From Pseudoselenomonas ruminantium (GTDB taxonomy: Bacteria > Bacillota > Negativicutes > Selenomonadales > Selenomonadaceae): a DNA stretch of 64,000 nucleotides. Below, one piece after another: positions 49,835 to 56,457 of this stretch (its first letter is position 1; every line of letters starts with the position of its first letter). The position numbers and the translations under genes were made by a program. The stretch spans positions 1-64,000 of the forward strand of contig NZ_FNJQ01000010.1 in assembly GCF_900104055.1 (NCBI RefSeq), read 5' to 3'. The notes beneath the pieces are model-generated. The model was not told where the DNA came from, made no database searches, and saw only the letters and a list, made by a program, of their open reading frames with translations.

Positions 49835-50302
49835 ATGAAGAAGTTTAAATTCCAATTGGAAACCCTGTTGCGGGTGACACGCCGCAAGAAAGACGATGCG
49901 GAGCGGGAATTTGCCGCTGCTTCCCGCAGGCTGGAGGAAGCCCGGGAGGGCTTGCAGACCTTGCTGGCAGAGATGCAGAAGGGACAGCGGGACTATGATG
50001 CCCTGTCTCAGGAAGGTGTCAGGGTTACCGTGGGTCGGCTTATGGCGTTCAATAGCTTTTTTGCCTGGAAGCGGGAACAGATTGAAATGCAGCAGGGCAT
50101 TGTGCTGCAGATGAAGGGTGAGAAACAGAAGAAGCTCAAGGCATTGATGGCCATCATGAGTTATCTGAAAAGCATTGAGCAGTTGAAAGAACGACGCTGG
50201 CAGGAGTATCAGGCCGAAGCCCTGCGGGAAGAACAGAAAATGCTGGATGAGATTGGTCTTCAGCTGACCATGCGCAGGAGAAGGGAAGGAGCAGTATCAT
50301 GA
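49835..50302 (+). CDS. fliJ: Flagellar export chaperone/coiled-coil FliJ
   Basis: 155 residues, almost wholly helical coiled coil, starting FKFQLETLLRVTRRKKDDAE as FliJ proteins do. Sits in the FliI ring and escorts chaperones. Ends within the start of the transglycosylase gene (4-nt overlap). Confidence 0.92.
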   Translation: MKKFKFQLETLLRVTRRKKDDAEREFAAASRRLEEAREGLQTLLAEMQKGQRDYDALSQEGVRVTVGRLMAFNSFFAWKREQIEMQQGIVLQMKGEKQKKLKALMAIMSYLKSIEQLKERRWQEYQAEALREEQKMLDEIGLQLTMRRRREGAVS

Positions 50303-50925
50303 TGGATTTGACCGGCGTGCGTCAGGTACAGGCACGGATTGCCCAATTGCAGGAACAATTCGGTATGCCCGGGACTATTCCCGGTGCGGGCTTCTCTAAG
50401 ACGCTGGAAAAGGAAATCCAAAAGACAATGGGCGGGGCAGATAAGACTGCAGCGCAGGTGGAAAAGACACAACCATTGCCGGATGTGCAGAAGGTGGAGC
50501 AGACGAAGGCAAGGCCTAAGACGGAAAAAGTGCTGGGAAATCTGCCGCTGGCTGATCAAAAACTCAGTACACTCATAGAGTCCGCTGCCCAAAAGTACAA
50601 GGTGGATCCCAAACTTGTGGCTGCGGTGGCAGAGGTGGAATCCAATGGACGGCAGGAGGCCGTATCCCAGGCCGGAGCTATCGGCGTCATGCAGCTGATG
50701 CCGGATACGGCGGCTTCTTTAGGCGTGGATCCGTATGATAAGCAGCAGAATGTGGAAGGCGGCGCCAAGTACCTGCGGCAGATGCTCGATACATTCGGCG
50801 GTGATCTCAAAAAGGCTGTGGCGGCTTATAATGCCGGCCCTGGAGCGGTAAAAGCCTATGGCGGGATTCCGCCTTACAAGGAAACCCAGAATTATGTGAA
50901 TAAAGTATTGGATATCTATAGATAA
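50299..50925 (+). CDS. Lytic transglycosylase (SLT domain) within the flagellar operon
   Basis: 208 residues. No clear signal peptide: the N-terminal ~90 residues are a Gln/Lys/Pro-rich linker beginning TGVRQVQARIAQLQEQFG, then an SLT domain with catalytic Glu114 in AEVESNGRQEAVS, GVMQLMPDTAASLGV and AAYNAGPGAVKAYGG. Probably opens peptidoglycan for rod passage, and may itself be exported through the flagellar gate since no Sec signal is seen (inference). Coupled to fliJ by overlap. Confidence 0.92.
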   Translation: MMDLTGVRQVQARIAQLQEQFGMPGTIPGAGFSKTLEKEIQKTMGGADKTAAQVEKTQPLPDVQKVEQTKARPKTEKVLGNLPLADQKLSTLIESAAQKYKVDPKLVAAVAEVESNGRQEAVSQAGAIGVMQLMPDTAASLGVDPYDKQQNVEGGAKYLRQMLDTFGGDLKKAVAAYNAGPGAVKAYGGIPPYKETQNYVNKVLDIYR

Positions 50926-50942: not shown

Positions 50943-51602
50943 ATGGCAGCAGCGAAGAAGAAAAAAAAGAAAAAAGGCAGCAAAATAGTAAAAGTGCTAT
51001 TGGTGCTCTTCCTGCTGTTGGTACTTATAGTGGGAGGCTTTGCCCTGGGCATCTATCTGCAGCTCATTGACACTAAGGATGCCAATGAGAAACTGAAACT
51101 CTATGATCTGCCGGTGGTGGGGGAATACTTTGTGCGCCCTGCTCCCAGCGAGGATGAGATGGAAAAATTGCCGGTGGAGGATGCTAAGCCGGACAAGGAT
51201 AAAGACAAGAATGTAAAAAAGGACGACAAGGATAAGAAGGAATCCAAGAAAATCGTCATAACCAAGGAAGAAATCGAAAAACAGATGAAGCAGCGGGAAG
51301 CGGAGGAAAAGAAGCGTGTTTCCAAGCTGGCCCGGTTGTACAATCAGATGAAGCCCAAAGAGGCGGCTAAGGCTATGAATGAGCTCGACGATGATATGTG
51401 CATCGCTATCTTACAGCGTATGGATGAAGCCGTGGTGGCCAAGATCCTGACTGCCTTTGATGAGGGCAAGACTGCCAGGATCACCCGAATCATGTATGCG
51501 GGCACCCAGAAGGAAGTCAATACGGAGGAAGATATCCGCCGTATGCTGGAGGAAAAAGCCCAGAAAAAAAATGCGGAAGAAGAGCAGCAGCAACAACAGT
51601 GA
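50943..51602 (+). CDS. MotE/YlxF-like flagellar protein (MgtE N-domain-like)
   Basis: 219 residues. Very basic start (AAAKKKKKKKGSK), membrane helix ~16-38, a Lys/Asp-rich linker (~75-110), then a helical domain with LYNQMKPKEAAKAMNELDDDMCIAILQRMD and FDEGKTARITRIM, the MgtE_N-like fold seen in MotE and Bacillus YlxF. Probably assists motor or export apparatus assembly. Poly-Gln end. Strong terminator follows. Confidence 0.82.
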   Translation: MAAAKKKKKKKGSKIVKVLLVLFLLLVLIVGGFALGIYLQLIDTKDANEKLKLYDLPVVGEYFVRPAPSEDEMEKLPVEDAKPDKDKDKNVKKDDKDKKESKKIVITKEEIEKQMKQREAEEKKRVSKLARLYNQMKPKEAAKAMNELDDDMCIAILQRMDEAVVAKILTAFDEGKTARITRIMYAGTQKEVNTEEDIRRMLEEKAQKKNAEEEQQQQQ

Positions 51603-51609
51603 ATCCATC

Positions 51610-51639
51610 CCTGTTGGCAGAAATGCCAACAGGTTTTTT
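51610..51639 (+). terminator. Terminator closing the first flagellar block
   Basis: CCTGTTGGCA-GAAA-TGCCAACAGG, perfect 10-bp stem with a GAAA tetraloop, then six Ts. Confidence 0.95.
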
Positions 51640-51755
51640 ATTATGGCAGGGTTAAAATACCATTAAAAAGCGGTTAAATTGGGACATAGCCCCTTGCATT
51701 TTCAAAAGATAAATAAGATAATAAAGTATATGTGTCTGAACAGGGGAGGAGTTCC

Positions 51756-52958
51756 ATGAAAAGACTATTCTTTTTGCTGTATATCACGGCGCTGGCCGTC
51801 GTGTTCCCTTTTGCTGCGCTTACTGCTGAGGCCAGTGATTTTGGGGACAGAGTCAGCAGCATGGCAGAGATAACTGGCATCCGGGACAGCAGTGATGCCG
51901 ATAAAACCCGGATTGTCATTGATGCCAGCAAGCCGGTGACCTATAAAAAGATGGTGCTTTCAGCTCCTGACCGGGTGGTTATCGATATTGCCAACGCCTG
52001 GGTTTCACCCAAGCTTGACCGGCAGCTGGACCTTGATACGAACTTTGTGGGCACAGTGAAGATTGCTCAGTTCGATCCTCAGACGGTCCGTGTGGTGGTG
52101 GAGACCAAGGTGGGCCGGAATAATTACAAGGTTTTTGGCCTGAACAGCGGTACGGTTCCCGGCCGTATTGTGATGGATTTTGGCAATCTGACGGATTCCA
52201 GTGGGGCTAAGATCGATCTGCCGGAGAAGACGCCGGCAGCTAAGCCGAAGGCGGAAACGGTCAAGCCAAAATCCGCAAAACAAGAGCAGGCGCAAAAGCA
52301 GGAGAAAAAAGAGCCGGAAAAGAGCAAAGATCCCACCAATAAGGATGAGGAACTGGACGAGGAACTGGCAGGCATTACCGGCTTGAAGGGGCGTAAGATT
52401 GTCTTAGATCCCGGTCATGGCGGCAGTGACTCAGGCGCTATTGGTCCTACGGGCGTAATGGAAAAGAGCGTTACCCTGCGGGTGGCCAATGAAGTGCGCC
52501 GCTTGCTCGTGAAGGAAGGTGCCACGGTCTATATGACACGGGAGGCTGATATCGAGGTGTCGCCGAAACGGGCGAAGGCCACGGATATCGAGGAATTGCA
52601 GGCTCGCTGTGATGTGGCTAATGAGGTCAATGCGGATATCTTCGTCTCGATCCACATGGATTCCTTTACCAACCGGGCCGCCAAAGGCACGACAGGTTAT
52701 TATTACTCGTTGGGAGACAAGCGCTCCCGGGTATTGGCGGACAAGATCCGTTCCGGGGTTATCGATCAGATCGGCACGCAGAGCCGGGGCACGCAGAGCT
52801 GCAATTTCTATGTAGTGAAGCATACGGATATGCCCGCAACTTTGCTGGAGGTAGCGTTTATCTCCAATGAGCAGGAAGAAAAGCTTCTGGACAGCGAAGA
52901 CGGCATCCGCAAAGCAGCTCAGGGAATTGTGGATGGCATTGCCGATTACTTTGGTTAA
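51756..52958 (+). CDS. N-acetylmuramoyl-L-alanine amidase with AMIN domain
   Basis: 400 residues from ATG 51756 after GGGAGGAG. Signal peptide, AMIN domain (~45-145; RIVIDASKPVTYKKMVLSAPDRVVIDIA), Lys/Glu/Pro linker (~155-200), amidase_3 domain with zinc ligands in DPGHGGSDSGA (His), a later Glu and SIHMDSF, and catalytic Glu in LLEVAFISNEQEE. Cuts the amide between MurNAc and L-Ala. Sits between two flagellar blocks, so either cell division or basal-body-related wall work. Confidence 0.94.
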   Translation: MKRLFFLLYITALAVVFPFAALTAEASDFGDRVSSMAEITGIRDSSDADKTRIVIDASKPVTYKKMVLSAPDRVVIDIANAWVSPKLDRQLDLDTNFVGTVKIAQFDPQTVRVVVETKVGRNNYKVFGLNSGTVPGRIVMDFGNLTDSSGAKIDLPEKTPAAKPKAETVKPKSAKQEQAQKQEKKEPEKSKDPTNKDEELDEELAGITGLKGRKIVLDPGHGGSDSGAIGPTGVMEKSVTLRVANEVRRLLVKEGATVYMTREADIEVSPKRAKATDIEELQARCDVANEVNADIFVSIHMDSFTNRAAKGTTGYYYSLGDKRSRVLADKIRSGVIDQIGTQSRGTQSCNFYVVKHTDMPATLLEVAFISNEQEEKLLDSEDGIRKAAQGIVDGIADYFG

Positions 52959-52997
52959 TGAGACAGAAGAATAAAAGAAAGGATTTTACAGGTAACA

Positions 52998-54197
52998 ATG
53001 GAAGCACAGAAAACAGAAATGACACAGGCAGAAAGCCTGGCGCAGATGATGGAAGCAGATATGGAGGAGCGTAAGAAAGCGCTCTATCGCCATAAGATGC
53101 CGGCGAAGAACGACCTGCAGTCGATGCTGGAAGCCATGACCAGGGCAGAGTTGGATGATATCCGCTACAATCTCAACATCAGCGGTGCCAGCTCGCTGAA
53201 GAAGGCGGAGCTGGTTCAGAAGCTGATGCCGGAAATCATCAATTTCGCCCGTCTCTGGCTGCCTTCTATTCTGTTGGAGGAATACGAATGCTTCCAGCAC
53301 CTTATCCTGGAAAAGGGGCAGAGTACCAAGCTGCGCGATGATGATGTGCGTCTGGACTATCTGCGCGGCCTGGGTTTCCTTTCCTGTGCCAAGGTTGAGG
53401 ACCAGCTCGTCTGGTATATGCCGGAGGAAATCCGTGCTGAGTTCAAGAAGCTGGATTCCCCGAACTTTGAGGCGCTGGCAACCATGAATACGGAGATTAC
53501 CCGCCTGACAGCAGGTGCGCTCTTCTATTACGGCTACATGAACTATGAAGAGCTGTATACTATGGTGGCCGGACATCTGGAAGCTGACCAGCGGGAAAAT
53601 CTCTCCTTCAAGGATTTTGTCGGCGTGATGCTCAATGCCTCCTGCTGGACGAATACGATCGTGGCTTTGCCGCAGGGCGTGAAGTATTATACGCTGATCG
53701 ATGAGTCGGCATTGGAGGATGAACAGCGCAAGCACAGCAATCTGGATTTTGCGAAGTTTACCTATGCGCAGCTTTTTGAAGCTGGCGCAGACAATCATAT
53801 CGATGCTACGATGGAGTATAAGGATCTGGCACAGTTCTTCATGAAAGAACATGGCTGTGATGTGCTGAAGGCAGCAGATATTACAGGGGAGATCTTCATC
53901 CTTTTGCAGAATGGCGGCAATCTGCAGGAAGCAGCAGAATATCTGGAACAACTGGGCATGATGGACGATGAACGCAAGATGAAGGCTGTGGTGCCTTTGC
54001 TGATCGCATACAATAACGAAACTCATCTTTGGCCGCTCAAAGGACATACCCCCAGCGAGCTCTTTGCCAAGAGTGGTATGGGCAAGGTGATTCCCTTTGC
54101 GGAAGTGCATCGTCAGAAGGCTGGACGCAACGATCCCTGTCCCTGTGGCAGCGGGAAAAAATATAAGAACTGCTGCCTGGCGAAGGATGAAAACTGA
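52998..54197 (+). CDS. SEC-C motif protein of unknown function
   Basis: 399 residues. Ends with the zinc-binding SEC-C motif NDPCPCGSGKKYKNCC, as in SecA and YecA-like proteins. Residues 40-85 include a SAP-like LDDIRYNLNISGASSLKKAELVQKL segment. The rest is helical, with no enzyme motif. No signal peptide. Overlaps the MATE gene by one base. Role unknown; a helper for nascent or exported chains is a guess. Confidence 0.85.
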   Translation: MEAQKTEMTQAESLAQMMEADMEERKKALYRHKMPAKNDLQSMLEAMTRAELDDIRYNLNISGASSLKKAELVQKLMPEIINFARLWLPSILLEEYECFQHLILEKGQSTKLRDDDVRLDYLRGLGFLSCAKVEDQLVWYMPEEIRAEFKKLDSPNFEALATMNTEITRLTAGALFYYGYMNYEELYTMVAGHLEADQRENLSFKDFVGVMLNASCWTNTIVALPQGVKYYTLIDESALEDEQRKHSNLDFAKFTYAQLFEAGADNHIDATMEYKDLAQFFMKEHGCDVLKAADITGEIFILLQNGGNLQEAAEYLEQLGMMDDERKMKAVVPLLIAYNNETHLWPLKGHTPSELFAKSGMGKVIPFAEVHRQKAGRNDPCPCGSGKKYKNCCLAKDEN

Positions 54198-55555
54198 TGA
54201 AACAGACCTTTGGTTACAAGGCAAAAGCACGGCAATTCTTTGTGGTGCTTTTGCCCATCTTTATAACCCAGTTGTCCCTGATGGCAACGGGTTTTTTTAA
54301 TACCGTGATGGCCGGTCATATCAGCCAGCAGGACCTGGCCGGCGTGGCGGTGGGGGTAAATCTCTTCATGCCTTTTTTCGGCAGTTTTTTGGGAATCATA
54401 TCCGGTCTGACACCAACGATTTCCCAGCTTTATGGTGCGGATAAGGCACATAAGATCGGCTTCATCGTCAAGCAGGGCTTTTACTGGGCACTGGCTTTGG
54501 GGGCAGGTTTTGTGGCGCTGGGCTGGCTGGCAGTGCCTCATATCCTGCCGCTTTTGCATCTGGAGCCGAAGGTGGAGTACATCACCAGTCATTATCTGAT
54601 GTTCCTCTCCATTGGCATCATGCCCATCTTCGTGTCCTCGGTGTTGCGGAATTTCATCGATGCCCATGGCTATACGCGGCTGACCATGTGTGTGACCATG
54701 TGTACCGTGCCCACTAACATCACGCTCAACTACATTTTCATGTACGGCCTGTGCGGGATGCCGGCCTTCGGCGGCGTGGGGGCTGGCCTTGGCTCAGCTA
54801 TCACGCTGACGCTGAACCTGCTGCTGAATATCGTCGTGGTGACAACGATGAAACCGTTCAAGGAGTATCATGTGTTCCGCAATCTGCCGAAAATCGATCT
54901 GCAGGAGTGGAAAAAGCAGCTGAGTGTCGGGATTCCCATCGGAGCTACTATGTTCTGTGAACAGAGCATCTTTGGTGCTGTGGGGCTCTTCATGACCGCT
55001 TATGGCACCGCAATCGTGGCAGCACATCAGGCGGCCATGAATTTCACCACCATTGTCTATATGATCCCGCTGGCTGTGAGTATGACACTGACAATCCTGG
55101 TCGGTTTTGAGGCAGGGGCAAAACGCCTGGCGGATGCGCAGCAGTATATCCGGCTGAGCCGTTATCTGACGTTTTTCACGGTGGGCAGCATTGCCCTGCT
55201 GCTTACGCAGTTTCGTGAGGAAATCGCGGCTTTCTACACCACCAGCAGCGAAGTGCAGCCCATATTGGCTGGCTTTTTGGTCTATGCGGTGTTCATGCAG
55301 TTTGCCGACAGCATCAACGCGCCGCTGCAGGGGGCTCTGCGCGGATTCAAGGACGTTCATGTGACCTTCATGCTGGCGGTGCTCTCCTTCTGGCTCATCG
55401 GGCTGCCGTTGGGCTGGGTGCTGGCCAGATTTACGGATCTGGGCCCTTATGGCTATTGGCTGGGGCTGATTGCCGGCATTATTATCGGGGCAATCTGTTT
55501 GGAGATACGCTTGCGGCAGGTGCAGGAAAAGGCTGCGTCCACTGTTAAACAGTAG
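54197..55555 (+). CDS. MATE family efflux transporter
   Basis: 452 residues, 12 membrane segments in two related halves (LPIFITQLSLMATGFFNTVMAGH and VGIPIGATMFCEQSIFGAVGLFM). Na+- or H+-driven export of cationic drugs or metabolites; NorM-like. Translation coupled to the SEC-C gene (TGATG). No regulator nearby. Confidence 0.92.
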   Translation: MKQTFGYKAKARQFFVVLLPIFITQLSLMATGFFNTVMAGHISQQDLAGVAVGVNLFMPFFGSFLGIISGLTPTISQLYGADKAHKIGFIVKQGFYWALALGAGFVALGWLAVPHILPLLHLEPKVEYITSHYLMFLSIGIMPIFVSSVLRNFIDAHGYTRLTMCVTMCTVPTNITLNYIFMYGLCGMPAFGGVGAGLGSAITLTLNLLLNIVVVTTMKPFKEYHVFRNLPKIDLQEWKKQLSVGIPIGATMFCEQSIFGAVGLFMTAYGTAIVAAHQAAMNFTTIVYMIPLAVSMTLTILVGFEAGAKRLADAQQYIRLSRYLTFFTVGSIALLLTQFREEIAAFYTTSSEVQPILAGFLVYAVFMQFADSINAPLQGALRGFKDVHVTFMLAVLSFWLIGLPLGWVLARFTDLGPYGYWLGLIAGIIIGAICLEIRLRQVQEKAASTVKQ

Positions 55556-55678
55556 ATTTTTGAAAATTTTGCCAGAAAAACTTTAAATTTTAAAAGGGAA
55601 AAAGGCGAACCTTGCCGAAATTAGAGAGAATAAGAAGACGTGCCGGATGAGTATGTGGAAGGTAAGGAGAGGAAGAGC

Positions 55679-55879
55679 ATGATCAAGCTGACAAAGTTTA
55701 ATTCGCAGACAAATAAAAAAGGAGAATTCGTGCTCAATGCCGAAATAATAGAAACGATAGAGGAAACGCCGGATACGGTGGTAACCCTGACTAATGGCAA
55801 GAAATTCATCGTGGAGGAACCCATGGATGAAATCGTCCGCAGGGTGATGAAGTATCGCCGGGCACTCCACCAATTTTGA
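55679..55879 (+). CDS. swrD: FlbD/SwrD-family flagellar protein
   Basis: 66 residues from ATG 55679 (AAGGAGAGG upstream). IKLTKFN...FVLNAEIIETIEETPDTVVTLTNGKKFIVEE matches FlbD/SwrD, which supports motor power for swarming in Bacillus. First gene of the second flagellar block, before fliL as in Bacillus. Confidence 0.9.
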   Translation: MIKLTKFNSQTNKKGEFVLNAEIIETIEETPDTVVTLTNGKKFIVEEPMDEIVRRVMKYRRALHQF

Positions 55880-55944: not shown

Positions 55945-56457
55945 ATGGCTGACGAAGAAAAAGACACAGAGGAAGTGGCAGAGGAAGAACCGAAGAAGAA
56001 ATCTCCGATAGTTCTGGTTGTCATTCTGGTGTTGATTGGTCTGGTGCTCGCCGGCGGCATCTCGTTCTTCATAACGACTAAGATGATGGCGGAGACCGCA
56101 ACAGAGCAAGTCAACGAACATCACGATCCTGGCAAGTTCATCAAGCTAGGGGATGCAAAAGAGGGTATCCTGGTCAACGTGGGCGGCCAAAAGGCCGGCA
56201 AGTTCCTGAAGGCTGGTATTGTTCTGGAAATGAATCCGGGCAAGAAAAGCAATATTACAGAGGAAGGTGCATTGCTCCCTGAAGCCGAAACCAAGATCCT
56301 GGATACGACGATGCAGCTCCTGCGCAGTGCAAAGCTCGATGAATTTGATGCAAACCGGCAGGATGAACTCAAGAAGAAATTGAAGGATGAACTGAACAAC
56401 AAACTGGGGCCGGGTTCTGTGTATGATGTGTATATAACGAGCTTCCTGCTTCAGTAA
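55945..56457 (+). CDS. fliL: Flagellar basal body-associated protein FliL
   Basis: 170 residues. Acidic N-terminal tail, membrane helix ~24-45, periplasmic FliL domain ending VYDVYITSFLLQ. Sits around the stator. SD GGAGGAG. Confidence 0.93.
   Translation: MADEEKDTEEVAEEEPKKKSPIVLVVILVLIGLVLAGGISFFITTKMMAETATEQVNEHHDPGKFIKLGDAKEGILVNVGGQKAGKFLKAGIVLEMNPGKKSNITEEGALLPEAETKILDTTMQLLRSAKLDEFDANRQDELKKKLKDELNNKLGPGSVYDVYITSFLLQ

Follow-up and report, generated by a model that had tools for sequence, protein, structure and literature searches.

In the flagellar gene cluster of Pseudoselenomonas ruminantium (NCBI RefSeq assembly GCF_900104055.1; Selenomonadaceae), the hook genes fliK, flgD and flgE are missing from their site, and three genes encoding an N-acetylmuramoyl-L-alanine amidase, a SEC-C motif protein and a MATE efflux transporter stand in their place. 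The stretch we analysed, hereafter the window, comprises the first 64,000 nucleotides of contig NZ_FNJQ01000010.1. The replacement is real, and the genes listed for this locus by a first-pass annotation of the sequence are confirmed. We put the probability that it is explained by ordinary translocation of whole transcription units at roughly 85%; real as it is, the rearrangement looks largely ordinary and appears to reflect shuffled genes, not a new connection with swimming.

The amidase-SECC-MATE operon and the displaced hook genes

Gene calls in the window combine open reading frames (ORFs) with a Pfam profile search. Between the MotE/ylxF-like gene and flbD (swrD), neither revealed fliK, flgD or flgE. 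The site instead holds an amidase with an AMIN domain (51732..52958; Pfam Amidase_3 3e-52 and AMIN 9e-17, each exceeding its cut-off, with CwlD-type and AmiC-type NCBIfam matches below theirs), probably translated from the ATG at 51756. It is followed by the SEC-C motif protein (52998..54197; Pfam SEC-C 2e-10), which is of unknown function and conserved in the family (11-sequence alignment), and by the MATE transporter (54197..55555; Pfam MatE 3e-56; TIGR00797 6e-82, above cut-off). All three genes lie on the forward strand and are closely spaced, the SEC-C and MATE genes overlapping by a single base.

Loss of the hook genes can be rejected, as they are found elsewhere in the same genome (G000); the suggestion of the first-pass annotation that the hook module had moved was right. 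fliK and flgD are adjacent on contig C61 (4183-6827; PF02120 2.7e-18 and PF03963 1.6e-23), between a CptA-like gene (NCBIfam matches below cut-off) and map, and have the same neighbours in a second genome, G117 (C19). flgE (521 aa) is on C50 (78948-80510). A partial second flgE in short frames near the end of this contig (C50:82226-82686) is probably a remnant. TIGR02530, present in 7 of 15 genomes examined, had no match in G000 or G117. The G000 flgE is 80% identical to its closest copy in the related genome G011, and the two share both gene and leader; BLASTN found no other DNA common to the stretches compared. Since only gene and leader are shared, flgE also moves.

To place this arrangement among relatives, we used 150 genomes of the class and 101 of the family, both draws from larger groups. 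FlbD was found in 85 of the 150 class genomes, and 60 of these loci were labelled together with the window's, giving 61. G125 and G141 were omitted because flbD is at a contig end, the remaining unused loci without selection on content. Short rod proteins encoded 5' of fliF receive the FlgE label too, and we counted as hook flgE, by hand from the labelled loci, frames of at least 350 aa directly upstream of flbD. Such a frame immediately precedes flbD in 47/61 loci, and fliK is present in 54/61. The usual order is MotE-fliK-flgD-(frame of ~130 aa)-flgE-flbD-fliL, the ~130 aa frame being TIGR02530 in the G089 copy. In Bacillus-type clusters the order is fliJ-ylxF-fliK-flgD-flgE-swrD/flbD-fliL; the window has the same flanking gene order, but its hook genes lie outside the cluster and a non-flagellar operon occupies their site.

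The amidase-SECC-MATE replacement occurs in two of the 61 loci, those of G000 and G117. A FliL+FliM+FliY tree places these genomes as sisters (local support 0.968), and their SEC-C proteins are 94% identical. No description of such a replacement at the hook site, and no paper on TIGR02530, was found in the portions of the literature at hand. Other stretches without fliK are those of G067, where MotE directly precedes flbD, and of G047, G093, G129 and G145, where unrelated genes precede flbD. In G067, a member of the same family, the hook segment has likewise gone from the locus, with flgE-fliK-flgD elsewhere, but nothing was put in its place, and the genes stand in a different order where they now lie. 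In genera g4 and g11 (L016, L021, L026, L028), flbD lies at a break with unrelated frames upstream, and the fliF-MotE genes are not in the sequence upstream of it. In family f11 (L035, L049, L066), fliK is followed by one ~130-aa frame and then flbD; the interval holds neither a FlgD label nor flgE.

In this family, departure of hook genes from the cluster is common. Both FlgD and FlbD are present in 82/101 family genomes (leaving out a second FlgD match in G169 and a second FlbD match in G199). flgD is within 5 kb of flbD in 56 of the 82, with room for flgE in 39 and without it in 17. The two genes are apart in the other 26: on the same contig in five (15.7 kb to 1.3 Mb) and on different contigs in 21, although G125, G141, G209 and G216 are at contig edges and may represent assembly breaks. 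Replacement by the amidase-SECC-MATE operon, in turn, looks like a single event.

Long matches to the SEC-C protein occur in 63/101 family genomes, including G193, where the gene is cut by a contig edge, and excluding matches to the short C-terminal motif or to short pieces (G177). The general composition in relatives is amidase(AMIN+Amidase_3)-SECC(-MATE): among 15 SEC-C contexts away from the flagellar locus, 13 have an open amidase frame next to the gene on the 5' side and 10 have MATE on the 3' side. The amidase before the SEC-C gene of G011 (L078:8334-9793) seems to be broken, lacking any long reading frame, and no amidase was detected beside the SEC-C gene of G163. Members of the genus carry the operon in no fewer than four neighbourhoods, counting the flagellar one. 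Named examples include a Selenomonas ruminantium metagenome-assembled genome (MAG; 70% identity), an S. bovis MAG (52%), Propionispira arboris (41%) and an Anaerovibrio MAG (40%). All three genes, in the same order and on the same strand, are seen for instance on contig SVBZ01000005.1 (L117) from the Selenomonas ruminantium MAG and in Propionispira arboris (L119), and neither operon locus had a match to any flagellar reference profile.

Junctions, leaders and promoter-like motifs

On both sides of the operon the flagellar genes follow the order given in the first-pass annotation, with one addition. To the left are fliJ (49835..50302; Pfam FliJ 1e-14), a gene for an SLT lytic transglycosylase (50299..50925; Pfam SLT 5e-28), which is the addition and is usual at this position (labelled in 53/61 loci), and the MotE/ylxF-like gene (50943..51602; Pfam MgtE_N 4e-7). 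To the right are flbD (55640..55879; Pfam FlbD 5e-25), probably translated from the ATG at 55679, and fliL (55945..56457; Pfam FliL 2e-15). All are on the forward strand.

The three genes had also been described as bracketed by a strong terminator, which holds for the left side only. There, an intrinsic terminator follows MotE (51610..51633, forward strand; -18.1 kcal/mol, z -3.9). A hairpin with a T-rich stretch occurs at the same place, upstream of fliK, in all five genus relatives folded (G011, G089, G062, G072 and G097), and in view of these hairpins the window's terminator is older than the replacement: ancestral in the genus, and not part of the insert. The right side has a short palindrome and no strong terminator. 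A pair of terminators delimiting the insert is thus ruled out.

The amidase arrived with its own promoter-like leader. The promoter-like sequence (TTGCAT, 17 nt, GATAAT; 51694..51722, forward strand) is conserved together with the leader at the amidase loci of G089 and G011; it was not among the sites listed by a simple promoter scan of the window. At the right breakpoint (55541..55555, forward strand; ACTGTTAAACAGTAG), the end of the MATE gene merges with the flbD leader, its final codons and stop being built from the flbD-leader palindrome. This palindrome also lies upstream of flbD in G011, in altered forms in G089 and G062, and was not clear upstream of flbD in G072, G097 and G220; the leader block as a whole is recognisable in all eight genus genomes aligned.

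The displaced hook genes carry motifs of another kind. We searched for a strict motif, a TAAR-N15-GCCGATAA-like site, which we take to be the sigma28 consensus, and for a relaxed motif, T[A/T]A[A/G]-N(14-17)-CGATA, chosen after seeing the sequences. The relaxed scan covered 120 nt (plus 30 nt of gene) for in-place genes and 250 nt for relocated ones. The strict motif precedes the relocated fliK in both G000 and G117, as well as the flgE of G000, the 793-aa flgE of G117 and the 522-aa flgE of G011. The 427-aa flgE of G117 has the relaxed motif only, and neither form was found before the 831-aa flgE of G011 or the 910-aa flgE of G089. Among in-place fliK genes, the relaxed motif is present before 8/15 in the family vs 1/39 outside it, with 113/12868 for background windows. 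Elsewhere in the family loci it precedes MotE in 2/18 and flgD in 1/15; outside the family it precedes SLT in 1/35, MotE in 1/39 and FlgE in 1/39.

Origin of the replacement

From the positions, neighbours, carried leaders and breakpoints observed, we infer the following order of steps. In the genus, fliK-flgD-TIGR02530-flgE would have formed a unit of their own, self-contained because a terminator ends the fliF-MotE operon, a sigma28-type motif stands before fliK and the flbD leader is conserved. This unit would have left the locus in the ancestor of the window genome and G117. fliK-flgD, with their promoter motif, would then have settled between the CptA-like gene and map, while flgE came to lie elsewhere on a unit of its own, likewise preceded by a sigma28-like motif, and TIGR02530 was seemingly lost. 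The amidase-SECC-MATE operon, which has several neighbourhoods in the genus, would have entered the vacated site together with its promoter. If these promoters are active, flagellar expression could survive such a move, since every unit seems to be transcribed on its own. The genus has a fluid gene order in general: the 12.2-kb C61 block of G000 is collinear in G117 and split over four places in each of G089 and G011, and the parts of a 13.4-kb block of G089 are scattered across G000, G117 and G062. One inversion running from the CptA-like gene to fliK would account for the junction 5' of fliK, but would explain neither the insertion of the amidase nor the joining of flgD to map.

The operon might instead have been recruited for motility, with its position under selection, for example for wall remodelling during flagellum insertion. 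Amidase activity could make openings in the wall for flagella, the operon sits cleanly in the flagellar cluster with its frames open in two sister genomes, and the MATE gene ends in the flbD leader, making read-through into flbD possible. However, the operon has kept its own promoter-like leader, and an SLT transglycosylase is already at the locus. Among the 54 family genomes with both genes, the SEC-C gene is adjacent to flbD in just two (G000 and G117); in the remaining 52 it is at least 18 kb away on the same contig (8) or on a different contig (44), although adjacency is not strictly excluded for G141 and G216, where flbD is at a contig end. FlbD and FlgD matches are both missing from seven of the 63 SEC-C-bearing genomes. 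Three of these are listed as <92% complete, but G029 is 100% complete and had no FlbD, FlgD or FlgE-type match (the FlgE-type check covered G029 and G137). A tie of the three genes to motility, the other option in the first-pass annotation, is therefore very unlikely; as in most relatives the genes lie outside flagellar loci, with the limit that flbD is at a contig end in a few drafts, they look like a chance arrival. The case advises caution, as a place inside the flagellar cluster is not proof of function and an unrelated operon can arrive there by translocation.

Several points nevertheless weigh against ordinary translocation. The replacement is one event seen in two sister genomes, and hence its neutrality rests on negative evidence; a clean replacement could also reflect selection. 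Draft assemblies do not give chromosomal distances, and the 44 non-adjacent cases are merely on different contigs. G137, which is among the seven with neither a FlbD nor a FlgD match, still has rod-protein-like and FlgM matches and is not plainly free of flagellar genes (this genus member has perhaps partly lost its flagellar system). As for the hook unit, seven of the 15 in-place fliK genes of the family lack the relaxed motif, the strict motif precedes just 2/54 in-place fliK genes (with 24 matches in 1.95 Mb of strand sequence), and all these motifs are sequence matches only.

Translocation of the units may have come about by recombination between copies of a ~640-bp dispersed repeat, a mechanism that we consider possible, if on the unlikely side. 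Copies lie between flgE and flbD in G089 (L012:11248-11828), just 5' of the amidase in the same genome (about L077:7975-8620) and just 3' of MATE in G072 (L080:8040-8654). G000 has at least 27 matches, at least 10 of which lie no more than 70 bases from where a contig starts, including C61, where the copy is 3.8 kb from flgD. Against this, BLASTN (E 1e-8) gave no match in the window or in L008, the orientation and order of the copies give no single simple crossover, and copies are so common that their adjacency may be chance. Misassembly of the draft genome, which is in 71 contigs with many repeats at contig ends, can be rejected with near certainty: the separate genome G117 has the same gene junctions (SEC-C 94% identity, as above), and no copy of the ~640-bp repeat lies at them.

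By eye, the ~640-bp repeat has internal inverted repeats. It is present in many copies in G011, G062, G117 and G000, often at contig ends. Rfam, at gathering threshold, gave only a tRNA across five loci, four of which hold a copy, and no match within the copies. No repeats of at least 40 bases were found within the window. A second dispersed repeat of ~52 bp (L006, near 1787-1839) has many copies in G089 and G000.

Hook genes as possible independent late units

The more interesting lead is the apparently self-contained, sigma28-like and multi-copy hook genes of this family, which often leave the cluster, apparently as units with promoter motifs of this type. Hook genes are usually expressed before sigma28 is released at the FlgM checkpoint. 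Perhaps the Selenomonas hook is instead a loose, exchangeable late part of the flagellum, with fliK and flgE as independent sigma28-type units that relocate freely and flgE in multiple copies with variable middles, so that the rule may fail here; we regard this as doubtful. The sigma28 dependence of the motifs is presumed from general knowledge of the consensus. FlgM is present in 12/12 genomes searched, and the relaxed motif lies ~180 nt upstream of FlgM in two of the three loci fetched. Should sigma28 regulation prove real, these FlgM-bearing bacteria would allow a direct test of when the hook is expressed with respect to the FlgM checkpoint.

The motifs before the relocated fliK (L006:6849, reverse strand) and before flgE (L007:12683, reverse strand) would, if real and with FlgM present, make for unusual wiring. 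Two to three hook-size flgE genes per genome were seen, with conserved ends, variable middles and open frames of 437 to 912 aa. Multiple copies are located in G089 (C1, C11, C15), G062 (C4, C10), G072 (C10, C24), G097 (C15, C18), G220 (C23, C43), G011 (C11) and G117 (C35, C20). In G089, G062, G072, G097 and G220, each copy adjoins a TIGR02530 gene.

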